From assembly GCA_017354415.1 (NCBI GenBank), contig JAFMQY010000008.1, positions 1-42,641 on the forward strand: a stretch of 42,641 nt of DNA, written 5' to 3'. Every line of letters begins with the position of its first letter. Positions within the stretch are counted from its first letter, which is position 1. The translations under genes were made by a program, and so were the position numbers. The DNA is from Nocardioides sp. (GTDB lineage: Bacteria; Actinomycetota; Actinomycetes; Propionibacteriales; Nocardioidaceae). Below, one piece after another: positions 10,667 through 32,195 of this stretch. The notes below the pieces were generated by a model, which saw only the letters and a program-made list of their open reading frames with translations, had not been told where the DNA came from and ran no database searches.

Positions 10667-11819
10667 GGACACCACCACAGTCGCGGCGGCCGAGGGGACA
10701 CCCGGCGCGGGTCTCGGACTCCGGGCGCTGACCAAGCAGTTCGCCAACTTCACGGCCGTGGACTCGCTCGACCTCGACGTCCCCACCGGGTCGTTCTTCG
10801 CGCTGCTCGGCCCGTCCGGCTGCGGCAAGACCACGACCCTGCGGATGGTCGCCGGCCTCGAGACGCCCACGTCCGGCACCATCCACCTGGCGGGCAAGGA
10901 CATCACCCACCAGAAGCCCTATCGCCGTCCGGTGAACACCGTGTTCCAGAACTACGCGCTGTTCCCGCACCTCGACATCTTCGAGAACGTCGCCTTCGGC
11001 CCACGTCGCCGCAAGGTCGCCGGGATCGACGCCGAGGTCCACCGGATGCTGGAGCTCGTCGAGCTGACCAGCCAGACGCGCAAGGTTCCGGCCCAGCTCT
11101 CCGGTGGACAGCAGCAGCGGGTGGCCCTGGCCCGGGCGCTGATCAACAAGCCCGAGGTTCTTCTCCTCGACGAGCCGCTCGGAGCTCTCGACCTCAAGCT
11201 GCGGCGCCAGATGCAGATCGAGCTCAAGCGGATCCAGACCGAGGTCGGCATCACGTTCATCCACGTCACCCACGACCAGGAGGAGGCCATGACCATGGCC
11301 GACACCATCGCGGTGATGAACGCCGGTGTCATCGAGCAGATGGGTGCCCCCGACGACCTCTACGAGAACCCCCGCACGACGTTCGTGGCCAACTTCCTGG
11401 GCCAGTCGAACCTGATCGACGGCACCATCCGGTCCCGCGACGGCGACATGACCCGGGTCGACATGCACGGCATCATGGTCTCGGTCCCGCGCGAACGCAC
11501 CCACGCCACCGATTCGCGGGGCTGGGTGGGCATCCGGCCGGAGAAGGTCCTGATCGGCGAGGAGGGCGAGGCCCTCGACGCACCCGGCAACACGATCCCC
11601 GGGGGCGTCATCAGCGACGTCAGCTTCGTCGGGGTCAGCACCCAGTACCTCGTGCGGATGCCGTGGGGCCAGGAGCTCCAGGTCTTCGAGCAGAACACCG
11701 GCCGCCGTCGGATCTTCCGCACCGGCGACCGCGTCGAGCTCTCGTGGCGCCCCGAGTACGCGTTCGTGCTCGACCACGCCCAGGACGCTTCGGCCGGCTC
11801 CCAGATCGACGACGAGTGA
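10650..11819 (+). CDS. Polyamine ABC transporter, ATP-binding protein (PotA-like)
   Basis: A 389-residue ATPase that powers the importer encoded around it. It has Walker A GPSGCGKTT (about residue 51), the Q-loop in FQNYALFPH, the signature LSGGQQQRVALARAL, Walker B VLLLDEPLGALD and the H-loop in VTHDQEEA. A C-terminal TOBE-like extension (about residues 250-375) is typical of PotA and related proteins and is often regulatory. It starts within the binding-protein gene and ends 10 bp before the first permease. Confidence 0.92.
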   Translation: MSHLAEDTTTVAAAEGTPGAGLGLRALTKQFANFTAVDSLDLDVPTGSFFALLGPSGCGKTTTLRMVAGLETPTSGTIHLAGKDITHQKPYRRPVNTVFQNYALFPHLDIFENVAFGPRRRKVAGIDAEVHRMLELVELTSQTRKVPAQLSGGQQQRVALARALINKPEVLLLDEPLGALDLKLRRQMQIELKRIQTEVGITFIHVTHDQEEAMTMADTIAVMNAGVIEQMGAPDDLYENPRTTFVANFLGQSNLIDGTIRSRDGDMTRVDMHGIMVSVPRERTHATDSRGWVGIRPEKVLIGEEGEALDAPGNTIPGGVISDVSFVGVSTQYLVRMPWGQELQVFEQNTGRRRIFRTGDRVELSWRPEYAFVLDHAQDASAGSQIDDE

Positions 11820-11829
11820 GCGCCCCCGC

Positions 11830-12690
11830 ATGAGCGAGACCGTGCGCCGGAAGGGAATCACCGGCTACATCCTGCTCGCCCCGGCCGTCGTCTGGCTGGT
11901 GGCGTTCTTCCTGATCCCGTTCTACTCCCTGCTCGCGGCCAGCCTGTTCAACTCTGACGGGTCCGACTTCCGCGGCTACACGATGACCTACGAGTGGAGC
12001 AACTACTGGCACGCCATCCAGGACTACTACCCGCAGTTCATCAGGTCCCTGGTGTACGCCGGGTTCGCCACGTTCTTCTGCCTGATCCTCGGCTACGTGC
12101 TGGCCTACGCGATCGCGTTCAAGTCCGGGCGGTGGAAGAACCTGATGCTGGTGCTGGTGATCGCGCCGTTCTTCACCAGCTTCCTGGTGCGCACGCTCTC
12201 GTGGAAGCTGATCCTGGGGAACGACGGGGTCGTCGTGAACACCTTGCAGTTCCTGCACATCCTGGGCCCGAACGGCCACCTGCTGTACACGCCGTTCGCG
12301 GTGGTGATGGGCCTGACCTACAACTTCCTGCCGTTCATGGTCCTGCCGCTGTTCGCCAGCATCGACAAGATCGACTACCGGCTGATCGAGGCGTCCAACG
12401 ACCTGTACGCCAACCCGGTGGTCGGCTTCTTCAAGGTGACGTGGCCGCTGTCGCTGCCGGGGGTGGTGTCGGGCACGCTGCTCACGTTCATCCCGGCGGT
12501 CGGTGACTACATCAACGACGAGCTGCTCGGCAGCACGCAGACCCGGATGATCGGCAACACCATCCAGAGCCTGTTCACCGAAGCCAACGACTATCCGGCC
12601 GCGAGCGCGCTCTCGGTCATCCTGATGCTGATGATCGTGGTGATGGTCCTGTTCTACGTGAAGCGAGCCGGGACGGAGGACCTGCTGTGA
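11830..12690 (+). CDS. Polyamine ABC transporter, permease (PotB-like)
   Basis: A 286-residue inner-membrane permease with six predicted helices. The EAA-type cytoplasmic loop that docks on the ATPase is visible around IEASNDLYANPVVGFFKVTW, followed by PLSLPGVVSG. This is the PotB/PotH class of the spermidine/putrescine permeases. Its stop overlaps the start of the next permease. Confidence 0.9.
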   Translation: MSETVRRKGITGYILLAPAVVWLVAFFLIPFYSLLAASLFNSDGSDFRGYTMTYEWSNYWHAIQDYYPQFIRSLVYAGFATFFCLILGYVLAYAIAFKSGRWKNLMLVLVIAPFFTSFLVRTLSWKLILGNDGVVVNTLQFLHILGPNGHLLYTPFAVVMGLTYNFLPFMVLPLFASIDKIDYRLIEASNDLYANPVVGFFKVTWPLSLPGVVSGTLLTFIPAVGDYINDELLGSTQTRMIGNTIQSLFTEANDYPAASALSVILMLMIVVMVLFYVKRAGTEDLL

Positions 12691-13571
12691 TGCGGTGGCT
12701 GCAGAGCAAGGTCGTCCTGATCCTCGGGATCCTGGTGCTCGTCTACACCTTCGTCCCGATCTCCGTGGTCGTGGTGATGAGCTTCAACAAGCTCCCGAGC
12801 GAGCAGTCGAAGATCTACCGGTTCAACCAGTTCACCCTCGACAACTGGCTGCACCCGTGCACCGACCCCAGCATGTGTCAGGCCCTGGGCCGCAGCATCG
12901 AGATCGGTCTGCTGGCGACGCTCGGGGCGACGATCCTCGGCACCCTGGCGGCCTTCGCACTGGTGCGCCACTCGTTCGTGGGCAGGTCGTCGACCAACGT
13001 GCTGATCTTCCTGCCGATGGCGGCGCCGGAGATCGTGATGGGCTCCTCGCTGCTGGCGCTGTTCGTCTCGGCCGGCTTCGCCGGCCAGCTCGGGTTCACG
13101 ACGATCCTGATCGCGCACATCATGTTCTGTCTGTCGTTCGTGATCGTCACGGTCCGGTCCCGGCTGGCCGGCCTCAGCGACACCCTCGAACAGGCGGCGA
13201 TGGACCTCTATGCGACCCCGCAGCAGACGTTCTGGAAGGTGACGTTCCCGCTGGTCTTCCCCGGGATTCTCGGCGCTGCCCTGCTGAGCTTCTCTCTGTC
13301 GTTCGACGACTTCATCATCACGAACCTCAACGCCGGCAACACCACCACCTTCCCGATGTACGTCTGGGGCGTCTCGCGCAAGACGATCCCGATGCAGATC
13401 AACGTCGTCGGCACGGTGATGCTGATCGTGTCGGTGCTGATCGTGGTCGGTGGTGAGGTGCGCAACCGTCGTCGGACCCGGGCCCTGGCCGGCCCGTCGC
13501 CGGCCCGCCGGGACTCGGTCGTCGCGGCAGCCGGCGCACGCTCGAGTGCCGGAGGCCTCGAGGCGGTCTGA
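12687..13571 (+). CDS. Polyamine ABC transporter, permease (PotC-like)
   Basis: A 294-residue second permease of the importer, with six predicted helices and the EAA loop around LEQAAMDLYATPQQTFWKVT, then FPLVFPGILGA. The end SLSFDDFIITNLNAG is typical of PotC. The start is GTG at 12687 or the adjacent ATG at 12690; GGAGGA at 12675-12680 suits either. The C-terminal 30 residues are polar and basic. It is the last gene of this transporter unit; a hairpin follows at 13611. Confidence 0.9.
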   Translation: MMRWLQSKVVLILGILVLVYTFVPISVVVVMSFNKLPSEQSKIYRFNQFTLDNWLHPCTDPSMCQALGRSIEIGLLATLGATILGTLAAFALVRHSFVGRSSTNVLIFLPMAAPEIVMGSSLLALFVSAGFAGQLGFTTILIAHIMFCLSFVIVTVRSRLAGLSDTLEQAAMDLYATPQQTFWKVTFPLVFPGILGAALLSFSLSFDDFIITNLNAGNTTTFPMYVWGVSRKTIPMQINVVGTVMLIVSVLIVVGGEVRNRRRTRALAGPSPARRDSVVAAAGARSSAGGLEAV

Positions 13572-13793: not shown

Positions 13794-15173
13794 TCAGAGG
13801 AGCGTGCCGGCCTGGGTCAGCACCTCGCGCAGGATCTGCTCCATCTCGTCGAAGTGCTCCTGGTCGCAGATCAGCGGGGGAGCGAGCTGGATGACGGGGT
13901 CGCCGCGGTCGTCGGCACGGCAGTACAGGCCCGCGTCGTACAGCGCCTTCGACAGGAACCCGCGGAGCAGCTTCTCGGACTCCTCGTCGTTGAAGGTCTC
14001 CTTGGTGTTCTTGTCCTTCACCAGCTCGATGCCGAAGAAGTAGCCGTCACCGCGGACGTCGCCGACGATCGGCAGGTCCTTGAGCTTCTCGAGCGTGCCG
14101 CGGAAGGCACTCTCGTTCTCGCGGACGTGCTCGTTGATCCGCTCCTTCTCGAAGATGTCGAGGTTGGCCATCGCGACGGCGGTGGAGACGGGGTGGCCGC
14201 CGAAGGTGTAGCCGTGCAGGAACGTCTGGGTGTCCTTGAGGAACGGCTCCATCAGCTTGTCGGAGGCGATCATCGCGCCCAGCGGCGCGTAGCCGGAGGT
14301 GATGCCCTTGGCGCAGGTGATCATGTCCGGCTGGTAGCCGTAGCGCTCGGCACCGAACATGTGACCGAGCCGTCCGAACGCGCAGATCACCTCGTCGCTG
14401 ACCAGTAGCACGTCGTACTCGTCGCAGATCTCGCGCACCCGGTCGAAGTATCCCGGGGGAGGCGGGAAGCAGCCGCCGGAGTTCTGCACCGGCTCGAGGA
14501 ACACGGCGGCAACGGTCTCGGGACCCTCGTTCTCGATCGCGACCGCGATCTCGTTGGCGGCCCAGAGGCCGAACTTCTTCTCGTCGTCCTCGAAGTACGG
14601 CGCCCGGTAGTAGTTGGTGTTCGGCACCCGGAAGGTCGACGGGACGAGCGGCTCGAACGGCGCCTTCATGCCGGGGAGGCCGGTGATCGACAGCGCGCCC
14701 TGGGGCGTGCCGTGGTAGGCGATCGCACGGCTGATCACCTTGTGCTTGTAGGGCTTGCCGACGAGCTTGAAGTAGTTCTTCGCGAGCTTCCATGCGGTCT
14801 CGACCGCCTCGCCGCCGCCGGTGGTGAAGAAGACGCGGTTGAGGTCACCCGGTGCGTAGCCGGCGACCCGCTCGGCCAGCTCGATGGCGTTGGGATGGGC
14901 GTAGGACCAGAGCGGCATGAACCCCAGCTGCTCGGTCTGCTTGGCGGCTGCCTCGGCGAGCTCCCTGCGGCCGTGGCCGAGCTGGCTCACGAAGAGGCCG
15001 GCCAGACCGTCGAGGTAGCGCTTGCCGTTCACGTCGTAGATGTAGGGACCTTCGCCGCGGACGATGATGGGCACGTCGGCGGAGTCGTAGGTCGAGTGGC
15101 GCGTGAAGTGCATCCACAGGTGGTCGCGCGCGGCCTGCTGGAGGTGGGCGTTGTCGTAGCTCTCGCCGGGCAT
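13794..15173 (-). CDS. Class III aminotransferase, putrescine/omega-amino-acid type (SpuC-like)
   Basis: A 459-residue PLP enzyme of the class III (omega) aminotransferases. It is cytosolic and probably moves the amino group of putrescine or a related diamine to pyruvate or 2-oxoglutarate, giving 4-aminobutanal. The PLP Lys is in MITCAKGITSGYAPLGA. The Asp that contacts the pyridine N is in LLVSDEVICAFGRLG, and the cofactor-phosphate region is TGGGEAVETAWKLA. The frame is open to 15236; the ATG at 15173 (MPGESYDNAHLQ) with CAGGA upstream is preferred because it gives the usual family N-terminus. It is divergent from the amidohydrolase, and a GAATCCGCA motif lies upstream. The true amine substrate is not provable from sequence. 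Confidence 0.85.
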   Translation of the reverse strand: MPGESYDNAHLQQAARDHLWMHFTRHSTYDSADVPIIVRGEGPYIYDVNGKRYLDGLAGLFVSQLGHGRRELAEAAAKQTEQLGFMPLWSYAHPNAIELAERVAGYAPGDLNRVFFTTGGGEAVETAWKLAKNYFKLVGKPYKHKVISRAIAYHGTPQGALSITGLPGMKAPFEPLVPSTFRVPNTNYYRAPYFEDDEKKFGLWAANEIAVAIENEGPETVAAVFLEPVQNSGGCFPPPPGYFDRVREICDEYDVLLVSDEVICAFGRLGHMFGAERYGYQPDMITCAKGITSGYAPLGAMIASDKLMEPFLKDTQTFLHGYTFGGHPVSTAVAMANLDIFEKERINEHVRENESAFRGTLEKLKDLPIVGDVRGDGYFFGIELVKDKNTKETFNDEESEKLLRGFLSKALYDAGLYCRADDRGDPVIQLAPPLICDQEHFDEMEQILREVLTQAGTLL

Positions 15174-15240
15174 GCGTATCGGATCCTGTTCATCTGGTCG
15201 TGTCCTGCCATCATGATGCCCGGAATGTGCCCACACAAGC

Positions 15241-15317: not shown

Positions 15318-15362
15318 ATGACGCGTGACGACCACGCCGGACCCCGGATCCAGGCCCGCTGA
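15318..15362 (+). CDS. Possible 14-codon leader ORF of the amidohydrolase
   Basis: ATG at 15318 reads MTRDDHAGPRIQAR and stops at TGA 15360-15362, where TGATG gives the amidohydrolase start at 15362. TAGGAA lies 6 nt before the ATG, so it could start a leaderless message. The amidohydrolase itself has only a weak CAGG before its start, which makes reinitiation or coupling from this small ORF plausible. No homology is recognised; the peptide may have no function of its own. Confidence 0.4.
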   Translation: MTRDDHAGPRIQAR

Positions 15363-17026
15363 TGGGCACGCTGTTCACCGGCGGCTCGGTGTTCGACGGG
15401 CACCGCCACCTGTCCGGCCACGGGCTGCTCGTCGACGACGGCTCGGTCGCCGGGGTGCTGGATCCCGGTGATCTCGACGAGTTCGACCGACGGGGCCCGC
15501 TCGACCGAGGTGAGCACGAGGTGGTGGACCTTGCCGGCGGGCTGGTCTCGCCAGGGTTCACCGACGCGCACTGCCATCCGATCCAGGGCGGACTCGAGCG
15601 GATGCAGTGCGACCTGACCGAGGGCGGCACCCGCGACGAGTACCTCGCCATGGTTCGCGACTACGCCGCTGGGCACGACGGACCGTGGGTGCTCGGCGGA
15701 GGCTGGGCGATGGCCGCCTTCACCGGGGGCACGCCCGCGGCGGTCGACCTCGACGCGGTGGTGCCGGACCGTCCCGCCTTCCTCCCCAACCGCGACCACC
15801 ACGGGGCCTGGGTCAACTCGCGAGCGCTGGAGCTCGCGGGGATCACCGCCGAGACCCCCGACCCGGCGGATGGGCGGATCGAGCGGCTCCCCGACGGCCG
15901 ACCGCAGGGGACCTTGCACGAGGGCGCGATGGATCTCGTCGCCCGGCTCCTGCCTCCCCTGTCTCCGGACGACTACGCGGCGGGCCTGCTCGAGGGCCAG
16001 CGGTACTTGTTCTCCCTCGGCGTCACCGCCTGGCAGGACGCGATCGTGGGCGCATACGCCGGGATGGCCGACACCGGCACGTCGTACCGGGACGCCATGG
16101 CGAACGGCGACCTCCTGGCCGACGTCGTCGGAGCACTGTGGTGGGACCGCGAGCTCGGACTCGCGCAGGTGACCGACCTCGTGCGGAGACGACAGGCCCT
16201 GTCCGGCGGGCGGTTCCGGGCGACGACCGTGAAGATCATGCAGGACGGCGTCTGTGAGAACTTCACGGCCTCGATGCTCACGCCGTACCTCGACGGGCAC
16301 GGTCACGTCACCGACAACGCCGGCCACTCGTTCGTCGAGGCCGAGGAGCTCCAAGAGGTCGTGGTCGCGCTCGCGGCCGAGGGCTTCCAGGTGCACGTGC
16401 ACGCCATCGGCGACCGGGGGACGCGGGAGGCTCTCGACGCGTTCGCGGCCGCCCGGGCAGCGGGCGGTCTCGACACGCTCGACCAGCGAGAGGACCTGCG
16501 GCACCACATCGCGCACCTCCAGGTGGTCCATCCGGACGACGTGCCGCGCTTCGCCGAGCTCGGCGTCGCTGCCAACGCGCAGGCGCTGTGGGCGTGCCAC
16601 GAGCCGCAGATGGACGAGCTGACGATCCCGTTCCTCGGTGCCGAGCGGGCGACCTGGCAGTACCCGTTCGGCAGCCTGCACCGCGGCGGTGCCCGGCTGG
16701 TGATGGGCAGCGACTGGCCGGTCACCTCACCGGACCCGCTGGCCGCGATCCATACGGCGGTGACGCGCACGTCGTACGACGACGCGCGCGAGCCGTTCCT
16801 CCCCGACCAGGCGGTCGACCTGACCACCGCGTTCGCGGCGTACACGTCGGGCTCGGCCTGGATCAACGGCCGCGACCGCCTCGATGGCGCCGGGGTCCTC
16901 GCCCCCGGCCATGCCGCGGACCTGGTGGTGCTCGACCGCGACCCGTTCACCGGGCCGCCCGACGAGATCGGCGCCAGTCGAGTCGCCTCCACCTGGGTCG
17001 GTGGGCGGGCCGTCCACGGTCGGTAG
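15362..17026 (+). CDS. YtcJ-like metal-dependent amidohydrolase
   Basis: A 554-residue member of the amidohydrolase superfamily, YtcJ subgroup. The first metal site is FTDAHCHP (about residue 68), the distal His motif is VHVHAIGDRGT, the catalytic Asp is in VMGSDWPVTSP, and the C-terminal beta-sandwich ends with the usual LAPGHAADLVVLDRDPF. Such enzymes hydrolyse C-N bonds of amides, ureas or cyclic amides; substrates of most YtcJ proteins are unknown. The setting among polyamine genes suggests an N-acylated or glutamylated amine or a lactam. The ATG at 15362 is the only usual start before an in-frame stop at 15326-15328. Confidence 0.86.
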   Translation: MGTLFTGGSVFDGHRHLSGHGLLVDDGSVAGVLDPGDLDEFDRRGPLDRGEHEVVDLAGGLVSPGFTDAHCHPIQGGLERMQCDLTEGGTRDEYLAMVRDYAAGHDGPWVLGGGWAMAAFTGGTPAAVDLDAVVPDRPAFLPNRDHHGAWVNSRALELAGITAETPDPADGRIERLPDGRPQGTLHEGAMDLVARLLPPLSPDDYAAGLLEGQRYLFSLGVTAWQDAIVGAYAGMADTGTSYRDAMANGDLLADVVGALWWDRELGLAQVTDLVRRRQALSGGRFRATTVKIMQDGVCENFTASMLTPYLDGHGHVTDNAGHSFVEAEELQEVVVALAAEGFQVHVHAIGDRGTREALDAFAAARAAGGLDTLDQREDLRHHIAHLQVVHPDDVPRFAELGVAANAQALWACHEPQMDELTIPFLGAERATWQYPFGSLHRGGARLVMGSDWPVTSPDPLAAIHTAVTRTSYDDAREPFLPDQAVDLTTAFAAYTSGSAWINGRDRLDGAGVLAPGHAADLVVLDRDPFTGPPDEIGASRVASTWVGGRAVHGR

Positions 17027-17177: not shown

Positions 17178-18611
17178 ATGGCCGACCAGAGGTTCAAGAA
17201 CGTGATCAACGGGGAGCTCGTCGACAGCGCGTCGGGCGAGACCTACGACGTGATCGACCCGACGACGGGCGGGGTCTACGCCCAGGCGCTGATGTCGGGC
17301 GCCGCGGACATCGACCGGGCGTACGCCGCGGCGGACGCGGCGTTCGAGTCCTGGGGGCAGACCACGCCCCAGGAGCGGGCCAACGCCTTGCTCAAGATCG
17401 CCGAGGCGATCGAGAAGCGGGTCGAGGAGATCAACGCCGTCGAGTGCAAGGACACCGGCAAGCCGCTCGGACTCACGATGTCGGAGGAGATGCCCTACGC
17501 CTCCGACCACTTCCGGTTCTTCGCGGGTGCCGCGCGGGTGCTCGAGGGCCGCTCCGCCGGCGAGTACATGGCCGACCACACCTCGTGGATCCGCCGGGAG
17601 CCGATCGGCGTCGTCGGCCAGGTGACGCCGTGGAACTACCCCCTGATGATGATGATCTGGAAGATCGCCCCGGCCCTGGCCGGCGGCAACACCGTCGTCC
17701 TCAAGCCCAGTGACACCACGCCGGCCAGCTCGACCCTGCTCGCCGAGCTGTGTCAGGAGTTCCTGCCGCCGGGTGTCCTCAACGTCGTCTGCGGCGACCG
17801 TGACACGGGACGCGCCCTGGTCGCACACAAGACCCCGCAGATGGTCTCCATCACCGGCTCGGTGCGGGCCGGCATGGAGGTAGCCGGCTCGGCAGCCACC
17901 GACCTGAAGCGGGTCCACCTCGAGCTCGGCGGCAAGGCACCCGTGATCGTGTTCGACGACGCCGACCTCGAGAAGGCGGCCGAGGGCATCGCCGTCGCCG
18001 GCTACTTCAACGCCGGGCAGGACTGCACCGCGGCCACGCGGGTGCTGGCCGGGCCCGGCGTACACGACGAGTTCGTCGCCGCCATCACCGAGCAGGCGAA
18101 GAACACCAAGACCGGCCTGCCCGACGACGAGGACGTGCTGTACGGCGCCCTCAACAACGCGAACCAGCTGGACCGCGTCACCGGCATGGTGGACCGTCTC
18201 CCCGACCACGCGTCGATCGCGGTCGGCGGCCGGCGCCAGGGCAGTGTCGGCTACTTCTACGAGCCGACTGTGCTCGCCGGTCTGCAGCAGGACGACGAGC
18301 AGGTCCAGACCGAGATCTTCGGCCCGGTGATCACCGTGCAGAAGTTCACCGACGAGGCGGAGGCACTCCGGTGGGCGAACGGCGTGGAGTACGGCCTGGC
18401 CTCGAGCGTGTGGACCAAGGACCACGCCCGCGCGCTGCGGATGTCGAAGAGGCTCGACTTCGGCGTGGTGTGGATCAACACCCACATCCCGTTCGTCTCC
18501 GAGATGCCGCACGGAGGCTTCAAGCACTCCGGCTACGGCAAGGACCTGTCGATGTACGGCCTGGAGGACTACACCCGGGTCAAGCACGTCATGAGCTACA
18601 TCGGCGAGTAG
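17178..18611 (+). CDS. Aldehyde dehydrogenase, probable gamma-aminobutyraldehyde dehydrogenase (PatD/YdcW-like)
   Basis: A 477-residue NAD(P)-dependent aldehyde dehydrogenase. The catalytic Glu is at residue 249 (LELGGKAP) and the catalytic Cys at 283 (FNAGQDCTAATR). The NAAGQDC-type context, in place of the usual GQxC, is typical of aminobutyraldehyde dehydrogenases. Cofactor-binding PWNYPLMMM and ITGSVRAG are present. The expected reaction is 4-aminobutanal to GABA, after the aminotransferase step. It is the first gene of a probable seven-gene operon ending with a YdcSTUV-like importer; in E. coli ydcW likewise sits with ydcSTUV, which supports the assignment. Confidence 0.9.
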   Translation: MADQRFKNVINGELVDSASGETYDVIDPTTGGVYAQALMSGAADIDRAYAAADAAFESWGQTTPQERANALLKIAEAIEKRVEEINAVECKDTGKPLGLTMSEEMPYASDHFRFFAGAARVLEGRSAGEYMADHTSWIRREPIGVVGQVTPWNYPLMMMIWKIAPALAGGNTVVLKPSDTTPASSTLLAELCQEFLPPGVLNVVCGDRDTGRALVAHKTPQMVSITGSVRAGMEVAGSAATDLKRVHLELGGKAPVIVFDDADLEKAAEGIAVAGYFNAGQDCTAATRVLAGPGVHDEFVAAITEQAKNTKTGLPDDEDVLYGALNNANQLDRVTGMVDRLPDHASIAVGGRRQGSVGYFYEPTVLAGLQQDDEQVQTEIFGPVITVQKFTDEAEALRWANGVEYGLASSVWTKDHARALRMSKRLDFGVVWINTHIPFVSEMPHGGFKHSGYGKDLSMYGLEDYTRVKHVMSYIGE

Positions 18612-18645: not shown

Positions 18646-19227
18646 ATGGCGAGAGTCGACGTCCTCATCGCCGGCCACGTGGAGCAGACCGAGGCCGGGA
18701 GCTCCGTCCACCCGACCGTGAGCCTGGTCCGCGACGGCGACCTGGTGGTCGTGGTCGACCCGGGCATTCTGTCGGGCCCGTCTCTGCTCGTCGACGCGCT
18801 GGCCGCCCACGACCTCTCCGTGTACGACGTGACCCACGTGTTCGTGACCCATCACCACATCGACCACACCCGCAACGTCGGCGTGTTCCCGATGGCGGTG
18901 GTCGTCGACGTCGACTCCGTGTACGACGGGTCCCTGTGGCTGGAGCACGACGGTGACGGTCACCACCTCAGCGCCGACATCTCCGTGATCGAGACCCCGG
19001 GCCATGCGCAGGAGTGCGCCGCCCTGGTGGTGTCCACCGACGACGGCACGGTGGTGCTGACACACGCCTGGTGGTTCGCTGACATGACGCCGGTCCAGGA
19101 CCCGCTGGCGTGGGACCAGTCGGAGCTGGAGCGAAGCCGCGAGCGGATCCTCGCGATCGCCGACATCGTCGTACCCGGACACGGCGCTCCCTTCCGGCCG
19201 AGGGACGTTCGAGGAGAGATCGCATGA
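18646..19227 (+). CDS. MBL-fold metallohydrolase (MBLAC1/glyoxalase II-like)
   Basis: A 193-residue protein of the metallo-beta-lactamase fold. The metal motif is VTHHHIDH (about residues 66-73). Further ligands are in ETPGHAQE, LTHAWWFAD (where His and Asp are expected) and the C-terminal VPGHG. It is a compact single-domain form. The substrate is unknown; thioesters, lactones and phosphodiesters are known in the fold. Its stop overlaps the start of the saccharopine-dehydrogenase-like gene (ATGA at 19224-19227), so the two products are probably made together. The intergenic stretch before it holds GAGCGAGCGGAGCGAGC, a simple repeat often seen in such genomes. Confidence 0.82.
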   Translation: MARVDVLIAGHVEQTEAGSSVHPTVSLVRDGDLVVVVDPGILSGPSLLVDALAAHDLSVYDVTHVFVTHHHIDHTRNVGVFPMAVVVDVDSVYDGSLWLEHDGDGHHLSADISVIETPGHAQECAALVVSTDDGTVVLTHAWWFADMTPVQDPLAWDQSELERSRERILAIADIVVPGHGAPFRPRDVRGEIA

Positions 19228-20465
19228 GGATCCTGCTGGTCGGCGCCGGAGGTGTCGGGGCGACGTTCACATCCATCGCCGCCCGCCGGGACTTCTTCGA
19301 GACCATCGTCGTGGCGGACTACGACATCGCCCGGTCCGAGCGCGCGGCGACGACCGACGAAAGGTTCGTCGCGGCCCAGATCGACGCTTCCGACGCAGAC
19401 GCGGTCACGGCGCTGTGCCGCGAGCATGCGATCACCCACGTCATGAACGCGGTCGATCCCGTCTTCAACATGCCGATCTTCGAGGGCGCGTTCGCCGCCG
19501 GCGCCGACTACCTCGACATGGCGATGTCGCTGTCGAAGCCGCATCCCGAGGCGCCGTACGAGAAGACGGGCGTGAAGCTCGGCGACGAGCAGTTCGCGGT
19601 CGCGTCCGAGTGGGAGAACGCCGGCAGGCTGGCCCTGGTCGGGATCGGGGTGGAGCCCGGGCTGTCCGACGTGTTCGCCCGGTACGCCGCCGACCACCAC
19701 TTCTCCGAGATCGACGAGCTCGGCACCCGCGACGGGGCCAACCTCCTGGTCACCGACGACGGCAACGAGATCTTCGCGCCGTCGTTCTCGATGTGGACCA
19801 CGATCGAGGAGTGCCTGAACCCGCCCGTCATCTGGGCCGTCGACGATTCCGGGCAGGGCTCCTGGCACACCACCGCGCCCTTCAGCGAGCCCGAGGTCTT
19901 CGACTTCCCCGAGGGCATCGGCCCGGTCGAGTGCGTGAACGTCGAGCACGAAGAGGTGCTCCTGATGCCGCGCTGGGTGGACTGCAAGCGGGCGACGTTC
20001 AAGTACGGCCTGGGTGATGAGTTCATCAACATCCTCAAGGTGCTCCACACCCTCGGTCTCGACCGCACCGAGAAGGTGCGGGTCAAGGCCGCTTCTGGTG
20101 GGCACTGCGAGGTCAGCCCGCGCGATGTGGTCGCTGCCGTGCTGCCCGACCCGGCCACGGTCGGGCCGCGGATGAAGGGCAAGACGTGCGCCGGGCTCTG
20201 GGTGACCGGGAAGGACAAGGACGGCGCGCCCAGGTCGACGTACTACTACCACGTGGTCGACAACGAGTGGACGATGCGTGAGTACGGCCACCAGTGCGTG
20301 GTCTGGCAGACCGCGATCAACCCCGTCGTCGCGCTCGAGCTCCTCTCCCGCGGCACCTGGGGCGGCGTCGGCGTCCTCGGGCCCGAGGCCTTCGACGCCG
20401 TACCGTTCCTCGACCTGCTGACCGAGTACGGATCGCCGTGGGGCATGCAGGAAGTGAGCGCCTGA
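19224..20465 (+). CDS. Saccharopine dehydrogenase-like oxidoreductase
   Basis: A 413-residue protein with an N-terminal Rossmann domain (ILLVGAGGVGATFTSIAA, residues 3-20; acidic ADYD at the end of beta 2) and a C-terminal saccharopine-dehydrogenase-type domain. Family reactions join or split an amine and an oxo acid through a reduced Schiff base (saccharopine, carboxynorspermidine), with NAD(P). GVEPGLSDVFARYA is a typical conserved segment. Inside a putrescine operon, a secondary-amine conjugate of a polyamine or aminoaldehyde is a reasonable substrate, but this is inference. The ATG at 19224 is fixed by GAGGAG at 19211-19216 and the 4-bp overlap with the MBL gene. The ATPase gene follows after 1 bp. 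Confidence 0.82.
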   Translation: MRILLVGAGGVGATFTSIAARRDFFETIVVADYDIARSERAATTDERFVAAQIDASDADAVTALCREHAITHVMNAVDPVFNMPIFEGAFAAGADYLDMAMSLSKPHPEAPYEKTGVKLGDEQFAVASEWENAGRLALVGIGVEPGLSDVFARYAADHHFSEIDELGTRDGANLLVTDDGNEIFAPSFSMWTTIEECLNPPVIWAVDDSGQGSWHTTAPFSEPEVFDFPEGIGPVECVNVEHEEVLLMPRWVDCKRATFKYGLGDEFINILKVLHTLGLDRTEKVRVKAASGGHCEVSPRDVVAAVLPDPATVGPRMKGKTCAGLWVTGKDKDGAPRSTYYYHVVDNEWTMREYGHQCVVWQTAINPVVALELLSRGTWGGVGVLGPEAFDAVPFLDLLTEYGSPWGMQEVSA

Positions 20466-20466: not shown

Positions 20467-21516
20467 GTGACCGCCGAGGTGACCACCCAGGGACTGACCA
20501 AGCATTTCGGCGAGGTTCACGCCGTCGACGACCTCGACCTCGAGATCGCCGACGGTGAGTTCTTCTCGATGCTCGGTCCGTCCGGCTCCGGGAAGACCAC
20601 GGTGCTGCGGATGGTCGCCGGCTTCGAGCGCCCGACGAAGGGGAGGATCCTCCTCGGCGACGCCGACGTGACCGATCTCCCGCCGTACCGGCGCGACGTG
20701 AACACGGTGTTCCAGGACTACGCGATCTTCCCCCACATGGACGTGATCAGGAACGTCGAGTACGGCCTGCGCGTGAAGAGGGTCGATCGCAAGGAGCGCC
20801 GTCGTCGGGCCGAGGAGGCGCTGGCCACGGTGCGCCTCGAGGGGTACGGCGGGCGCAAGCCGAGCCAGCTCTCGGGCGGGCAGAGGCAGCGGGTCGCCCT
20901 CGCCCGCGCCCTCGTCAACCGACCCAAGGTGCTGCTCCTCGATGAGCCGCTCGGTGCGCTCGACCTCAAGCTGCGCCGTGAGATGCAGCTGGAGCTCAAG
21001 CAGATCCAGCGCGACGTCGGGATCACGTTCGTGTTCGTGACCCACGACCAGGAGGAGGCGCTGTCGATGAGCGACCGGGTCGCGGTCTTCCAGGACGGCC
21101 GCGTCGAGCAGGTGGCGACGCCGGTTCAGCTGTACGAGGAGCCTGCAAGCGAGTTCGTCGCCGGTTTCGTGGGCACGTCCAACCGCATCGGCGCCGCCGA
21201 CGCCCGACGGCTGCTCGGCACGCCGGGGGAGTACGCCGTACGGCCGGAGCGGCTGCGCGTCGTCCCCGCCGGTGCGTCGGTGGAGCGCGGCGAGCTCATG
21301 CTGCCGGGGAGGGTGCGCGAGGTGGTCTACCTGGGCCCCACCACCCACGCGATGGTCGAGCTGGACGGTGGGGCGACCCTGACCGTCTCGCGACCCAACG
21401 CCGGAGGAGCCGAGCCACCGCTCGAGGTGTCCGACCGAATGGTGGCGGTGGCACTCCACCGCAACTCATTGATCGCTCTCTCGGGAGGGACCGAAGAAAC
21501 CGAGGAGACAGCATGA
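20467..21516 (+). CDS. Putrescine-type ABC transporter, ATP-binding protein (YdcT/PotA-like)
   Basis: A 349-residue ATPase: Walker A GPSGSGKTT, signature LSGGQRQRVALARAL, Walker B VLLLDEPLGALD, H-loop VTHDQEEA, and a short TOBE-like C-terminal part. It is close to, but shorter than, the first ATPase at 10650. The GTG start lies 1 bp after the upstream stop, and its own stop overlaps the binding-protein start (ATGA at 21513), so this is tight operon structure. Confidence 0.9.
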   Translation: MTAEVTTQGLTKHFGEVHAVDDLDLEIADGEFFSMLGPSGSGKTTVLRMVAGFERPTKGRILLGDADVTDLPPYRRDVNTVFQDYAIFPHMDVIRNVEYGLRVKRVDRKERRRRAEEALATVRLEGYGGRKPSQLSGGQRQRVALARALVNRPKVLLLDEPLGALDLKLRREMQLELKQIQRDVGITFVFVTHDQEEALSMSDRVAVFQDGRVEQVATPVQLYEEPASEFVAGFVGTSNRIGAADARRLLGTPGEYAVRPERLRVVPAGASVERGELMLPGRVREVVYLGPTTHAMVELDGGATLTVSRPNAGGAEPPLEVSDRMVAVALHRNSLIALSGGTEETEETA

Positions 21517-22727
21517 CCATCCGCAGGAGAACGCAGGCACTGGGCGCTCTGCTGGGCGTCGCCGCCCTGGCCCTGGTCGCCGGTTGCGGCACGTCCGGAT
21601 CCAGCGACACCACTGCGACCCCGGGGACCGGTGGATTCATCCCGCCTGCCATCCCCATGAAGCAGTCGATGGGCAAGATGGAGGGCCAGGTCAACATCCT
21701 CGCCTGGCCCGGGTACGCCGAGGACGGCTCCAACGACCCCAAGGTCGACTGGGTGACGCCGTTCGAGAAGGCGACCGGCTGCCAGGCCAACGTCAAGTAC
21801 TTCGGCACCTCCGACGAGGCCGTCAACCTGATGAAGACCGGCGGGTACGACGTGGTGTCGGCGTCCGGGGACGCCTCCCTGCGGCTGGTCGCCGCCGGCG
21901 ACGTCGCACCGGTGAACACCGCCCTGATCAAGGACTACAGCCAGATCGAGCCGTTCCTCAAGGACCGCGCGTGGAACAGCGTCAACGGCCAGATGTACGG
22001 CGTGCCGCACGGCTGGGGCGCGAACCTGCTGATGTACCGGACCGACGACGTGAAGCCGGCCCCGACCAGCTGGGGTGCGGTCTTCACCGACGCCTCGAAG
22101 TACAAGGGCAAGGTGACGGCGTACGACTCGCCGATCTACATCGCCGACGCCGCGCTCTACCTGATGAAGACCCAGCCGGACCTCGGCATCAAGGACCCGT
22201 ACGCGTTGGACCAGAAGCAGCTCGACGCCGCCGTCAGCCTGCTCAAGGAGCAGCGCCAGAACATCTCGGAGTACTGGTCGGACTACCTCAAGGAGGTCCA
22301 GGCCTTCAAGACCGGTGACTCCGTGATCGGGACGACCTGGGAGGTGATCAAGCAGCTGGCAGCGAGCGAGAAGGCCCCGGTGAAGGCGATCCTGCCCAGC
22401 GAGGGCGCGACGGGCTGGTCGGATACCTGGATGATCAGCTCGCATGCCCAGCACCCGAACTGCGCCTACGCGTGGATGTCCTACATCACCGAGCCCAAGC
22501 CGCAGTCCGAGGTGGCGCAGTACTTCGGCGAGGCGCCCGCCAACGGGCAGGCCTGCCAGCTCACCGGCGAGGCGTTCTGCAAGGCCTACCACGTGACCGA
22601 CAAGGCTTTCGCGAACAAGATCTGGTACTGGACCACGCCGATCACGCAGTGCCTGGACGGGCGCACGGCCACCACCTGCACCGACTACACCCAGTGGACC
22701 CAGGCCTGGACCGAGATCAAGGGCTGA
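21513..22727 (+). CDS. Putrescine-type ABC transporter, substrate-binding lipoprotein (YdcS-like)
   Basis: A 404-residue membrane-anchored binding protein. The lipobox LVAGC puts the lipidated Cys at residue 25. The body matches the YdcS group: LAWPGYAEDG near residue 65, then DWVTPFEKATGCQANVK, GGYDVVSASGDASLRL, and WGANLLMYRTDDV. This differs clearly from the Tat-type binding protein at 9479, so the two importers belong to different subfamilies. Putrescine is the likely ligand by analogy with YdcS. Four Cys near the C-terminus (QACQLTGEAFC, TQCLDGRTATTC) may form two disulphides. Confidence 0.88.
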   Translation: MTIRRRTQALGALLGVAALALVAGCGTSGSSDTTATPGTGGFIPPAIPMKQSMGKMEGQVNILAWPGYAEDGSNDPKVDWVTPFEKATGCQANVKYFGTSDEAVNLMKTGGYDVVSASGDASLRLVAAGDVAPVNTALIKDYSQIEPFLKDRAWNSVNGQMYGVPHGWGANLLMYRTDDVKPAPTSWGAVFTDASKYKGKVTAYDSPIYIADAALYLMKTQPDLGIKDPYALDQKQLDAAVSLLKEQRQNISEYWSDYLKEVQAFKTGDSVIGTTWEVIKQLAASEKAPVKAILPSEGATGWSDTWMISSHAQHPNCAYAWMSYITEPKPQSEVAQYFGEAPANGQACQLTGEAFCKAYHVTDKAFANKIWYWTTPITQCLDGRTATTCTDYTQWTQAWTEIKG

Positions 22728-22730: not shown

Positions 22731-23630
22731 TTGACATCACCTGCGCACACGGCCCCCGCCCGGGCGAAGAAGCCCGAGCGGGGGTCGCTGCTCAGCCGCT
22801 CGGGAGGTCTGCGCACCTTCGTCCTCCTTCTGCCGCCGATGATGTGGCTCGGCGTCGCCTACCTGGCGGCCCTTGCGGCGCTCTTCATCACATCGCTGTG
22901 GGGGCAGAACGACTTCACCGGTGACATCGAGCGGATCTGGACGCTCGACAACTACCGGCAGATCTGGGAGATCCCGGTCTATCGGACGATCGCGTTCCGC
23001 ACGATCGGCATCGCCGCGCTGGTGACGGTGATCGACGCGGTGCTGGCCTTCCCGATCGCGCTCTACATGGCGAAGGTGGCGTCGCCGCGCGTGCGCCGCC
23101 TGCTGGTGATCTCCGTGCTGATGCCGCTGTGGGCGTCGTATCTGGTCAAGGCGTACGCGTGGCGGGGGATGTTCTCGGACGGCGGCGTGATCGACTGGCT
23201 GGGCAAGCCGTTCGGGATCCAGTCGCCCGGATACGGTCTCGCGGCGACCACGATCACGCTTGCCTACCTGTGGCTGCCGTACATGATCCTGCCGGTCTAC
23301 GCCGGCCTGGAGCGGGTGCCGGACTCGCTGTTCGAGGCCTCGGGCGACCTCGGCGCCGGTGCCCTGACCACCATCCGGCGCGTGGTGCTGCCGATGGCCT
23401 TCCCGGCGATCGTGGCCGGGTCGATCTTCACGTTCTCGCTGTCGCTGGGCGACTTCATCGCGGTCACCATCGTCGGCGGCGCGAGCCAGCTGATCGGGAC
23501 CGTCGTCTACACGAACGTCGGAGTCGCCAACAACCTGCCGTTCGCGGCGGCGTACGCCACGATCCCGGTCGTGGTGATGCTCGTCTACCTGTACGCCGTG
23601 CGGCGTACCGGGGCCCTGGAGAACCTGTAG
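22731..23630 (+). CDS. Putrescine-type ABC transporter, permease (YdcU/PotB-like)
   Basis: A 299-residue permease with six predicted helices after a polar, basic N-terminal tail of about 25 residues. The EAA loop is around LFEASGDLGAGALTTIRRVV. The start is TTG at 22731, 3 bp after the upstream stop; no ATG or GTG lies nearer to the expected first helix. It pairs with the next permease. Confidence 0.88.
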   Translation: MTSPAHTAPARAKKPERGSLLSRSGGLRTFVLLLPPMMWLGVAYLAALAALFITSLWGQNDFTGDIERIWTLDNYRQIWEIPVYRTIAFRTIGIAALVTVIDAVLAFPIALYMAKVASPRVRRLLVISVLMPLWASYLVKAYAWRGMFSDGGVIDWLGKPFGIQSPGYGLAATTITLAYLWLPYMILPVYAGLERVPDSLFEASGDLGAGALTTIRRVVLPMAFPAIVAGSIFTFSLSLGDFIAVTIVGGASQLIGTVVYTNVGVANNLPFAAAYATIPVVVMLVYLYAVRRTGALENL

Positions 23631-23634: not shown

Positions 23635-24444
23635 ATGACCATCGACCGACGGCTCAAGGCCGTGCTCCGCGTATTCACCGGCCTGGTGCTGGTGATCGTC
23701 TACACACCGCTCGTGCTGGTGTTCGTCAACTCGTTCAACGTCGACCGGACGTTCACCTGGCCGCCGCCCGGGTACACCCTGGACTGGTGGGACCTCGCGA
23801 TCCACAGCAGCGGGGCACGCGACGCGCTGGTGACCAGCATCGAGGTGGCGCTGCTGGCGACGGCGATCGCGCTGGTCCTCGGCACCCTGGCCGGACTCGC
23901 GCTGCGGCGCACCAGGTTCTTCGGGCGGAACGTCGTCTCGCTGCTGATCATCCTTCCGATCGCTCTGCCGGGCATCGTGACCGGCATCGCACTGAACAAC
24001 GCCTTCCGGACGATGCTGGGTCTCGAGCTCGGCTTCTTCACGATCGTCGTAGCGCATGCGACGTTCTGCATCGTCACCGTGTTCAACAACGTGCAAGCCC
24101 GGGTCCAGCGGCTCGGTCCGTCGCTGGAGCAGGCGTCGGCCGATCTCGGTGCCGGACCGTTCAAGACGTTCCGGCTGGTGACCTTCCCGATGCTGCGCTC
24201 CGCTCTGCTCGCCGGCGCGCTGCTGGCGTTCGGGCTGTCTTTCGACGAGATCGTGGTGACCACGTTCACAGCCGGCCCCGACATACAGACGCTGCCCATC
24301 TGGATCTTCCAGAACCTCTTCCGGCCCAACCAGGCGCCGGTGGTCAACGTCGTGGCGGCCGTGCTGGTGCTGTTGTCGGCGGTTCCGATCTACCTCGCCC
24401 AGCGGCTCTCCGGCGACGTGGTGAACACCAGTGCCGCGCCCTGA
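23635..24444 (+). CDS. Putrescine-type ABC transporter, permease (YdcV/PotC-like)
   Basis: A 269-residue permease with six predicted helices and the EAA loop around LEQASADLGAGPFKTFRLVT, then FPMLRSALLAG and LSFDEIVVTTFTAG. It is the last gene of the probable 17178-24444 operon. Only 18 bp separate it from the convergent luciferase-like gene, so no free-standing terminator is visible. Confidence 0.9.
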   Translation: MTIDRRLKAVLRVFTGLVLVIVYTPLVLVFVNSFNVDRTFTWPPPGYTLDWWDLAIHSSGARDALVTSIEVALLATAIALVLGTLAGLALRRTRFFGRNVVSLLIILPIALPGIVTGIALNNAFRTMLGLELGFFTIVVAHATFCIVTVFNNVQARVQRLGPSLEQASADLGAGPFKTFRLVTFPMLRSALLAGALLAFGLSFDEIVVTTFTAGPDIQTLPIWIFQNLFRPNQAPVVNVVAAVLVLLSAVPIYLAQRLSGDVVNTSAAP

Positions 24445-26268: not shown

Positions 26269-27621
26269 TCAGCCTGTCGCGGCGAAGGCCTCCGCGACCA
26301 CGTCGAACGCCTCCTCGAGCAGCTCGTCGCTGATCGAGAGCGGTGGCAGGAAGCGGAAGACGTTCCCCCAGGTGCCGCAGGTGAGGGTGACGACGCCGAC
26401 GCCGTGGCAGTACGCTGTCGCGGCTGCCGCGCGGGCGGCGTCCGGCTCGAGGGTCCCCGGCTTGCAGAGCTCGATCGCCATCATCGCCCCGCGCCCGCGG
26501 ATGTCGGCGATGACGGGGTGGTCAGCGGCGATCGCCTCGAGGCGGCGACGCATGATCGACTCGATGGCACGCGCGCGGGCGGGCAGGTCGTGCGACTTCA
26601 TCTCCTCGATCGCGCCGAGTGCGGCGGCGCAGGCGACAGGGTTGCCGCCGTACGTGCCACCCAGCCCGCCGACGTGTACGGCGTCCATCACGTCTGCTCG
26701 CCCGGTGACCGCGGCGAGGGGGAGGCCGCCGGCGATGCCCTTGGCGGTGGTGATCAGGTCGGGCACCACTCCCTCGTGGTTGCACGCGAACCACTCACCG
26801 GTGCGGCAGAACCCGCTCTGGATCTCGTCGGCGACGAAGAGCACGTCGTTCTCACGGCACCAGGCCGCGAGCGCCGGCAGGAAGCCCTCTGCCGGGACGA
26901 CGAAGCCGCCCTCGCCCAGGATCGGCTCGATGACGACGCAGGCGAGGTTCTGCGCGCCGACCTGCTTCTCGAGCTGGTCGATCGCCCGGGCCGCGGCGTC
27001 CTCGCCCTTGATCCCGGCGGTCTCGCGGAACGGGTAGGACATCGGCAGCCGGTAGATCTCACCGGCGAACGGCCCGAAGCCGTTCTTGTACGGCATGTTC
27101 TTGGCCGTCATCGCCATCGTCAGGTTGGTCCGGCCGTGGTAGGCGTGGTCGAACACGGCGACCGCGTCCTTCCCGGTCGCCACCCGCGCGATCTTGACGG
27201 CGTTCTCCACCGCTTCGGCGCCGGAGTTGAACAGCGCCGACTTCTTGGCGTGGTCGCCCGGAGTGAGCTCGGCGAGGGCCGCGCAGACGTCCACATAGCC
27301 GTCGTACGGCGTGACCATGAAGCAGGTGTGGGTGAACGCCGCCACCTGCTGCTGCACGCGGGCGACCACCTCCGGCGCGGCGTTGCCGACGGTGGTGACG
27401 GCGATGCCGGAGCCGAGGTCGATCAGCGAGTTGCCGTCGGCGTCCACGAGGATGCCGCCGCCGGCCGCCTCGACGAAGATCGGGAGCGTCGTGCCGACGC
27501 CGTCGGCGACGTACTGCTTCTTGCGCGCGAGCTTCTCCCGCGACCTGGGCCCGGGGATCTCGGTGACCAGGTTGCGCTGCTGGGTGAGGGAGGTGCCGCT
27601 GCCGGCGATCGTCGTGCTCAT
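26269..27621 (-). CDS. gabT: 4-aminobutyrate aminotransferase (GABA transaminase)
   Basis: A 450-residue class III PLP enzyme that turns GABA and 2-oxoglutarate into succinate semialdehyde and glutamate, completing putrescine breakdown to the edge of the TCA cycle. The PLP Lys is in LITTAKGIAGGLPLAAV. The Asp is in LFVADEIQSGFCRTGEW and the phosphate-binding segment is FNSGAEAVENAVKIAR, all in the GabT pattern. The length is normal. The ATG is preceded by TAGGCT with a 6-nt gap, and by the shared GAATCCGCA motif on the minus strand. The partner gabD (succinate semialdehyde dehydrogenase) is not in this window. Confidence 0.93.
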   Translation of the reverse strand: MSTTIAGSGTSLTQQRNLVTEIPGPRSREKLARKKQYVADGVGTTLPIFVEAAGGGILVDADGNSLIDLGSGIAVTTVGNAAPEVVARVQQQVAAFTHTCFMVTPYDGYVDVCAALAELTPGDHAKKSALFNSGAEAVENAVKIARVATGKDAVAVFDHAYHGRTNLTMAMTAKNMPYKNGFGPFAGEIYRLPMSYPFRETAGIKGEDAAARAIDQLEKQVGAQNLACVVIEPILGEGGFVVPAEGFLPALAAWCRENDVLFVADEIQSGFCRTGEWFACNHEGVVPDLITTAKGIAGGLPLAAVTGRADVMDAVHVGGLGGTYGGNPVACAAALGAIEEMKSHDLPARARAIESIMRRRLEAIAADHPVIADIRGRGAMMAIELCKPGTLEPDAARAAAATAYCHGVGVVTLTCGTWGNVFRFLPPLSISDELLEEAFDVVAEAFAATG

Positions 27622-27711: not shown

Positions 27712-28485
27712 TCAGGGGGTGTGGCGCAGCCTCACCGACAGGCAGGTCACGCCACCCTCGACCTTCTCGAACTCGCTGATGTCCACCGCCACCACATCGA
27801 GGCCGTGCTCCTCGAAGAGCTTCTTGGTGTCCGGCGCGGCGGCACTCATCAGCACCGTGTCACCGCCGAGAAGGACGACATGCGAACCCTCCGGCTCGGG
27901 GACGTCGAGGACCGAGTCCCACATGTCCGGGTGCTCGACCAGGGGCGCATAGCCGACCACGGTCCCGTCCGGCAGCGCGGTCACGGCCGTCTTCAGGTGC
28001 AGCACCTTGGACACCGGTACGGCGACCACGTGCGCGCCGAGGGGCTCGAGGTGCGCCGTCAGCTGGTCGATCCCCTCCTGGTTGGTGCGGCCGCCCAGCC
28101 CGACCCAGACCGTGCCGCCGTGCTTGAGCACGTCGCCGCCGTCGAGCGTGCCCGGCGCCTCGATCCGGACCACGTCGTACCCGAGGCCGCGCAGCACGGC
28201 CTCGGTGCCGGCGGTCTCGGGCTTGCGCGTGTCGGCGCCCGGGCGGGTGATCACGGCCCGGGACGCGTACATGACCACGGTGTCCTCCACGAACACGCTG
28301 TCCGGGCAGTCGTCGGCGGGTGGCACCTCGAGGGTCTCCCACCCGGCGGCGTGGAGGGCGTCGACGTACCCCTGCCACTGCCGGACTGCCAGGTCGACGT
28401 CGACCGGCTGCCGCTCGAGATGGGTCACGATCCCCTCGGCGAGACGGGAGGATGGGCGGCGCACCAGCGCACGACGAGCGTCCAT
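27712..28485 (-). CDS. ddaH: N(G),N(G)-dimethylarginine dimethylaminohydrolase (dimethylargininase)
   Basis: A 257-residue enzyme of the guanidino-group-modifying family that hydrolyses methylated arginines to citrulline and methylamines. The conserved sites are visible: DSVFVEDT (substrate Asp/Glu), [10 protein letters not shown], the catalytic His region in [11 protein letters not shown], and the catalytic Cys at residue 248 in [11 protein letters not shown]. The length is normal. Dimethylargininase fits a scavenging region for arginine-derived amines. The ATG at 28485 has TAGACT 6 nt upstream. It is divergent from dxr, with only 41 bp between start codons. Confidence 0.9.
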
Positions 28486-31040: not shown

Positions 31041-32195
31041 ATGACCTCTGTCAGCCTGGGGATGCCCGAGGCACCCCCGCCCGTGCTCGCCCCGCGCCGC
31101 CAGACCCGTCAGATCAAGGTCGGCAAGGTGGGTGTCGGCAGCGACTACCCGGTCTCGGTCCAGTCGATGACCACCACCCTCACCGCGGACGTCAACGCGA
31201 CGCTCCAGCAGATCGCCGAACTCACGGCCACGGGCTGCGACATCGTGCGGGTCGCCTGCCCCAGCCAGGATGACGCGGAGGCGCTCCCGGCCATCGCCCA
31301 GCACAGCCAGATCCCGGTCATCGCCGACATCCACTTCCAGCCGAGATACGTCTTCGCCGCGATCGACGCCGGATGCGCGGCGGTCCGGGTCAACCCGGGG
31401 AACATCCGCAAGTTCGACGACCAGGTCAAGGAGATCGCCCAGGCGGCCCAGGACCACGGCACGAGCATCCGGATCGGCGTCAATGCCGGCAGTCTCGACA
31501 AGCGCCTCCTCGAGAAGTACGGCAAGGCCACGCCCGAGGCTCTGGTCGAGAGCGCGGTGTGGGAGGCGAGCCTCTTCGAGGAGCACGACTTCCACGACTT
31601 CAAGATCTCGGTCAAGCACCACGACCCCGTCGTGATGGTGCGGGCCTACGAGCTGCTCGCCGAGAAGGGCGACTGGCCCCTGCACCTCGGCGTCACCGAG
31701 GCCGGTCCGGCCTTCCAGGGCACGATCAAGTCCGCCACCGCGTTCGGTGCGCTTCTGAGCAAGGGCATCGGAGACACGATCCGGGTCTCGCTCTCCGCTC
31801 CGCCGGTCGAGGAGGTGAAGGTGGGCATCCAGATCCTCGAGTCGCTCAACCTCCGGCCGCGACGCCTCGAGATCGTCTCCTGCCCCTCCTGCGGTCGCGC
31901 CCAGGTCGACGTCTACAAGCTCGCCGACGCGGTCACCGCCGGCCTCGACGGTCTGGAGGTCCCGCTCCGCGTCGCGGTCATGGGCTGCGTCGTGAACGGC
32001 CCCGGTGAGGCGCGCGAGGCCGACCTCGGCGTCGCCTCGGGCAACGGCAAGGGTCAGATCTTCGTCAAGGGCGAGGTGATCAAGACCGTCCCCGAGTCGC
32101 AGATCGTGGAGACCCTGATCGAGGAAGCGATGCGGATCGCCGAGGGCCTCGAGCCCGTCGAGGGCGGCGCCGGGGCGAGTGTCACTGTCGGCTGA
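31041..32195 (+). CDS. ispG: 4-hydroxy-3-methylbut-2-enyl diphosphate synthase (flavodoxin/ferredoxin)
   Basis: A 384-residue iron-sulphur enzyme of the MEP pathway. The N-terminal barrel has [19 protein letters not shown] and [10 protein letters not shown]. The [4Fe-4S] ligands are in [11 protein letters not shown] and [13 protein letters not shown], including the conserved Glu. The length is normal for the bacterial form. The next gene starts 17 bp before its stop, an unusual overlap with a secreted phosphoesterase gene that has no known link to isoprenoids. Confidence 0.96.

Follow-up and report, generated by a model that had tools for sequence, protein, structure and literature searches.

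On the plus strand of the window (the whole stretch analysed, 42,641 nucleotides of a Nocardioides sp. contig, JAFMQY010000008.1), an amidohydrolase gene is followed by genes for an aminobutyraldehyde dehydrogenase (ALDH), an MBL-fold hydrolase (MBL), a saccharopine-dehydrogenase-type protein (SDH) and an ABC importer made of an ATPase, a YdcS-like binding protein and two permeases. The minus strand carries a class III aminotransferase gene upstream of this series and, downstream of it, gabT and a dimethylargininase gene (Table 1). We found both the MBL and the SDH frame where the initial annotation had put them, with the 4-base ATGA overlap readable off the sequence, and their position between the aminobutyraldehyde dehydrogenase and the importer holds as well, with the proviso that the binding protein is only YdcS-like. 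The gaps between ALDH and MBL, MBL and SDH, and SDH and the ATPase gene measure 34, -4 and 1 bases, respectively, and this spacing makes it likely that the four genes share one transcript. The SDH frame is not a product of chance, as its same-genus orthologues are 72-89% identical to it; the nearest named loci are from Nocardioides, within a set that leans to close relatives because it comprises the best 80 of 208 loci. The aminotransferase, whose listed frame matches PRK06541 from residue 28 onwards, would be of the putrescine/omega-amine type judging by its gene context. The neighbours of SDH are those of the putrescine transaminase, aminobutyraldehyde dehydrogenase and GabT route with a Pot or Ydc importer; we know of no dehydrogenase of SDH's family in that route, and the pathway forces no SDH step, since aminotransferase and ALDH already suffice for putrescine. 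The second polyamine importer stands upstream of the aminotransferase gene, and related importer genes are found there in other Nocardioides loci; an Amidohydro_3 gene lies near SDH in 33 of 62 Nocardioidaceae loci. Three PF04185 phosphoesterase-family genes are clustered at 32179-38922 of the window.

Table 1. Genes of the SDH locus and its surroundings (positions within the window).
Feature	Position	Strand	Evidence
Second polyamine-type importer, complete	9479..13571	+	profile matches
Second importer SBP, PotF/PotD-like	9479-10666	+	profile matches
Second importer ATPase, PotA-like	10650-11819	+	profile matches
Second importer permeases	11830-12690 and 12687-13571	+	profile matches
Class III aminotransferase	13794..15236	-	PRK06541, 832 bits vs cut-off 574
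Amidohydrolase (Amidohydro_3)	15362..17026	+	Pfam
Aminobutyraldehyde dehydrogenase (ALDH)	17178..18611	+	NCBI PRK13473, 712 bits vs cut-off 615
MBL-fold hydrolase (MBL), 193 aa	18646..19227	+	Pfam Lactamase_B 6.5e-09
Saccharopine-dehydrogenase-type protein (SDH), 413 aa	19224..20465	+	Pfam Sacchrp_dh_NADP 1.6e-20, Sacchrp_dh_C 4.2e-23
ABC importer ATPase, PotA-like	20467..21516	+	profile matches
ABC importer binding protein, YdcS-like	21513..22727	+	358 bits, below cut-off 725
ABC importer permease, PotB-like	22731..23630	+	profile matches
ABC importer permease, PotC-like	23635..24444	+	profile matches
4-Aminobutyrate transaminase (GabT)	26269..27621	-	profile matches
Dimethylargininase, adjoining gabT	27712..28485	-	411 bits vs cut-off 340

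The Sacchrp_dh_NADP and Sacchrp_dh_C domains mark SDH at the superfamily level only. Its closest solved relatives by sequence are of the carboxyspermidine dehydrogenase type (CASDH, EC 1.5.1.43): a PDB search gave 4ina (3.5e-50), 4rl6 (6.4e-46), 8deb (8.4e-42) and 8h4z (1.1e-29), the first two of which are assigned to CASDH in the available excerpts of PMC10413350. Structure prediction, into which 41 of 51 non-redundant SDH proteins entered, yielded an AlphaFold2 model of SDH (pLDDT 96.1, pTM 0.93) that matches the Bacteroides fragilis CASDH (BfCASDH, 8deb) over 387 residues (Z 53.1, rmsd 1.8 Å, 28% identity). Other CASDHs came next in the structural ranking, followed by L-lysine 6-dehydrogenase (3abi; Z 37.7, 18% identity), homospermidine synthase (6y87, 4plp; Z ~29-31 with a best of 31.4, 12-16% identity) and saccharopine reductase (1ff9, 1e5l, 2axq; Z 28-29, 14-17% identity). 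All of these share the superfamily fold with SDH, and saccharopine reductase also shares its predicted secondary-amine chemistry; homospermidine synthase has NAD in its structures and a polyamine substrate, going by the entry titles, but only its N-terminal part matches by profile, whereas CASDH (8deb, 8h4z/8h52) is homologous over its full length and has equivalents of the catalytic residues. In BfCASDH these are Glu188 and His228-Glu229-Glu230, and the active site of saccharopine reductase differs from that of CASDH (both from excerpts of PMC10413350). The four BfCASDH residues align with E196 and H242-E243-E244 of SDH, all four of which are kept in 133/133 distinct orthologues (159 rows, each at least 55% identical to the window's SDH). 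BfCASDH Ser144 corresponds to SDH Ser148, which is no strict marker: 124 of the 133 orthologues have Ser there and 9 have Ala, and the eight nspC-linked CASDHs have Thr or Val. Against the NCBIfam model for carboxynorspermidine synthase (NF043000), SDH scored 174.9 bits versus a cut-off of 800, with no true CASDH scored alongside. Taken together, its sequence, its predicted structure and its catalytic residues place SDH with CASDH and not with the saccharopine enzymes; the suggestion in the initial annotation that carboxyspermidine-like conjugates might be split had named the right subfamily (CASDH, Z 53.1).

SDH nonetheless differs from CASDH in its cofactor site and in two added arginines. 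BfCASDH holds the NADP 2'-phosphate with Ser34, Arg35, Thr36 and others (PMC10413350, in excerpts). The three named residues align with D32-Y33-D34 of SDH, in which the 2'-phosphate site is absent; Asp32 is present in 133/133 distinct orthologues, and Ser-Arg-Thr-Lys in 8/8 CASDHs encoded beside nspC and in two more that lack annotation. Asp is also found at this position in distant relatives (2/2 at 42-44% identity, 3/3 at 34-36%, locus L195 and a Haladaptatus protein). An acidic residue here usually means NAD, which is the cofactor we infer for SDH. Arg169 and Arg300 occur in 133/133 orthologues and in 0/8 nspC-linked CASDHs; Arg169 is kept in the distant relatives, and Arg300 is shared by the 34-36% group and Haladaptatus, whereas the 42-44% pair and L195 lack it. 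The two conserved arginines could hold a carboxylate. Within the SDH match, one in-frame TGA is present in each of three same-genus genomes (G129, G146 and G189; loci L009, L015 and L023). In a quick-search tree of 62 rows, which has SH-aLRT support only, long branches at L195, L223 and L185 and an outgroup that no single branch splits off, one fully supported branch (SH-aLRT 100) sets the ten CASDH rows apart, and another (SH-aLRT 93) unites the window's group and the 42-44% pair. On these alignments SDH forms a branch separate from the nspC-linked CASDHs, and its family is a CASDH variant widespread in Actinomycetota, with a match at 1e-30 in 55 of 396 phylum-sample genomes.

We found that SDH is strongly linked to ALDH. 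Among 198 genomes of the family, 120 have an SDH match, or 116 without four weak ones (G138, G152, G166, G177), and 134 have an ALDH match, or 122 without 12 whose best match was only ~60-63% identical or had no listed identity; with one place entered per genome, both genes occurred in 102 genomes, SDH only in 14, ALDH only in 20 and neither in 62 (Fisher p = 2.7e-20, uncorrected for kinship). ALDH lies directly upstream of SDH on the same strand in 76 of the 116 SDH genomes (with a gap of at most 28 bases in 60 of the 76); a further 20 have it no more than 10 kb away on that strand. In 6 of the 102 genomes with both it is on another contig, and four of those six assemblies consist of 200-300 contigs. 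The order of the genes varies: the importer lies between ALDH and SDH in 7/7 Intrasporangiaceae loci, importer and ALDH stand divergently opposite SDH in 2/2 loci of family f46, and the order aminotransferase-ALDH-importer-SDH was also found. That the arrangement differs between lineages argues that the ALDH-SDH link is kept by function, not only by descent. We retain the initial annotation's idea of an unusual step in a putrescine locus, but place it in a conserved ALDH-SDH unit rather than an MBL-SDH one, with an enzyme whose kin is CASDH.

In a census using identity thresholds of 45-60%, 80 of 121 SDH loci had at least one of aminotransferase, ALDH, GabT and Pot-type ATPase genes near SDH, and 41 had none. 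Such genes were near SDH in 62/62 Nocardioidaceae, 7/7 Intrasporangiaceae, 2/2 f46 and 2/4 f9 loci and in a few others (15/56 outside the Nocardioidaceae-like records; 8/41 for the phylum-sample loci alone), and the aminotransferase itself was near in 56/62 Nocardioidaceae loci. Putrescine loci of Nocardioidaceae and some other Actinomycetota thus repeatedly contain an oxidoreductase of the saccharopine dehydrogenase superfamily, in partial support of the initial annotation. The census found none of these amine genes within reach in 5/5 Mycobacteriaceae, 3/3 Microbacteriaceae, 5/5 f3, 8/8 f15 and 7/7 f29 loci, although some amine-gene-free loci end at contig ends (L157 at 4.7 kb). The 41 loci without amine genes imply that SDH must also work without the cluster. 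Open reading frame clustering over 75 loci gave no partner shared across lineages in these contexts; named by eye, the mycobacterial neighbours are of the tRNA-guanine transglycosylase, P450 and acetyl-CoA hydrolase types, and those in family f3 of the TetR type. SDH matches also occur on 126 plasmid records, 12 of which were inspected: on one from Streptomyces goshikiensis, SDH adjoins a TetR/AcrR regulator and an MpaB-type oxygenase, and on one from Kitasatospora, a helix-turn-helix regulator and an APC permease.

The proposal that MBL and SDH form a functional pair was abandoned for the rarity of the pair. MBL adjoins SDH in 3 of 110 SDH loci (the window, L006 in genome G131, and L031), a count that includes two contigs ending ~200 bases upstream of SDH (L033, L098), too short for an MBL to show there; an MBL match at 1e-15 is present in 7 of the 198 family genomes, and a close MBL in just two, the window's own and G131. 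The junction in L031 has the same ATGA overlap in its sequence, and all of the pairs adjoin ALDH and/or the importer, though three are too few to judge whether such pairs lie mainly away from amine genes. Near five distant MBL homologues (36-42% identical), ten window proteins matched nothing except MBL and, in one locus (L213), two short ATPase stretches (28% and 39%). MBL is a rare local insert between ALDH and SDH, confined as an accessory to very few strains; the SDH chemistry proposed below does not require it. Its metal site is odd: residues 69-74 form the HxHxDH motif as HHHIDH (seven distinct aligned homologues have HHHxDH), and the Asp of the 'GD' motif, the bridging Asp of the metallo-beta-lactamase fold, is replaced by His in the window and in all seven (TH(A/L)WW, compared with AGD in 4v0h).

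We reasoned that a catalytic set suited to secondary amines or imines, a cofactor site of the NAD type and neighbours for import and aminoaldehyde oxidation point to polyamine oxidation. Our leading interpretation, to which we assign a probability of roughly 0.45, is that SDH is an NAD-dependent CASDH relative acting in polyamine breakdown, where it would oxidise a secondary amine and supply an aminoaldehyde to ALDH; the use of NAD+, the oxidative direction and the substrate are all read from sequence and context. A polyamine would enter via the Pot-type importers, SDH would oxidise the C-N bond at its secondary amine with NAD+, the resulting Schiff base would be hydrolysed, and the aminoaldehyde would pass to the neighbouring aminobutyraldehyde dehydrogenase, while putrescine would be turned by aminotransferase, ALDH and GabT into 4-aminobutanal, GABA and finally succinate semialdehyde. 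Spermidine or aminopropyl-GABA (isoputreanine) would be the most likely substrate. Spermidine would give putrescine and 3-aminopropanal, in what would be a decarboxylated mirror image of the CASDH reaction; alternatively, aminotransferase and ALDH could first turn spermidine into aminopropyl-GABA, which SDH would then split, and this substrate would offer a carboxylate for Arg169 and Arg300 to hold. The narrower claim, that SDH is a polyamine-splitting dehydrogenase which uses NAD to release 3-aminopropanal from spermidine, leaving putrescine (or from aminopropyl-GABA, leaving GABA), is possible but doubtful. Other polyamine routes may exist in the window's genome, given its five glutamine-synthetase-family and nine amine-oxidase-family matches, one of the latter strong and with an in-frame stop.

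The competing explanations fall in odds from a different conjugate through a deaminating putrescine dehydrogenase and a 2-oxoglutarate route to biosynthesis. SDH might have an unrelated or broader substrate and act with NAD on some other secondary amine or amino-acid conjugate, adjoining putrescine genes only in some lineages, as the amine-gene-free loci, the non-polyamine contexts on the Streptomyces goshikiensis and Kitasatospora plasmids and two conserved arginines able to bind a carboxylate would allow; the tight and repeatedly rearranged linkage with ALDH and Pot-type importers speaks against this, and we consider it unlikely. Rather unlikely too is a deaminating amine dehydrogenase, which would use NAD+ to convert a primary amine of putrescine (or cadaverine) to an aminoaldehyde and ammonia and leave the aldehyde to ALDH. 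L-lysine 6-dehydrogenase oxidises the lysine amine with NAD and ranks directly behind the CASDHs in the structural comparison, and the 76 genomes with ALDH directly upstream of SDH would suit such a reaction; on the other hand, most Nocardioidaceae loci have an aminotransferase nearby that would catalyse this step, and SDH has the catalytic residues of CASDH, whereas L-lysine 6-dehydrogenase is without the His-Glu-Glu motif (excerpts of PMC10413350). The saccharopine-like route put forward in the initial annotation, in which putrescine and 2-oxoglutarate would be reduced to a conjugate that is then split to 4-aminobutanal and glutamate, found no specific support and is improbable: the chemistry is that of the superfamily and the arginines could bind its carboxylates, but saccharopine reductases are distant (Z ~29 versus 53.1 for CASDH), MBL is absent from nearly all such clusters seen, and two dehydrogenase steps are needed where the genome has one such gene, its other PF03435 matches reaching at most 44 bits and lying on other contigs.

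That SDH is a biosynthetic CASDH, or a carboxyaminopropylagmatine dehydrogenase, making spermidine precursors would agree with its family and catalytic residues; it is nevertheless the most improbable of the readings, given the lost NADP site, the separate branch in the tree, the low score against the carboxynorspermidine synthase model (~175 bits versus 800) and the distribution of nspC. CASDH makes carboxyspermidine, which NspC then decarboxylates, and nspC behaves as expected of a marker, since it adjoins annotated CASDH-type genes on six plasmid loci (Peptoclostridium, Qingshengfaniella, Salipiger, Pseudochrobactrum, Rhizobium and Leisingera) and one Sinorhizobium meliloti locus. Our sample of 48 hand-picked genomes comprised 34 with an SDH orthologue (a fragment in G324), one with a relative at 44% identity, three at 36-38%, G310 and nine without. 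No strong nspC was found in the 34 orthologue genomes (29 with no match, five with weak matches of 21-40 bits; the window's own genome is ~91% complete); the only strong one in the sample is that of G310 (383 bits, slightly short of the 409-bit cut-off), which directly adjoins the CASDH-type gene of that genome. In the excerpts available of PMC13293326, the S. meliloti casdh is smb21630. Unlike CASDH, SDH often lies in a locus for import and breakdown.

Titles and abstract openings in the open-licence literature tie no saccharopine-type dehydrogenase to bacterial polyamine breakdown, and no assay was found. In the accessible parts of a SAR11 paper (PMC8437039), spermidine use in bacteria without spdH is described as unexplained by canonical genes, and reversal of spermidine synthase is proposed for SAR11. 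Another concrete and readily assayed candidate for spermidine use, in actinomycetes, would be the NAD-type CASDH branch with its ties to putrescine breakdown genes. If the narrower, polyamine-splitting reading of SDH is true, spermidine dehydrogenase (SpdH), amine oxidases and gamma-glutamylation would have a peroxide-free alternative that occurs across several classes of Actinomycetota. As a warning to annotators, catabolic polyamine enzymes may be hidden among genes labelled saccharopine dehydrogenase.

Two loci of distant relatives were also noted. On a Haladaptatus plasmid (L223, 892-5134), an SDH-type gene with the cofactor-site Asp follows two ALDH genes behind an ABC ATPase gene, starting one base after the second ALDH gene, and this cluster is possibly an archaeal parallel. 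In a genome with no nspC match, a relative 34-36% identical to SDH (L183, 3168-10701) lies with an ALDH gene, a GabT-like match (34%), an EamA transporter, an AsnC-type regulator and an FAD oxidoreductase.
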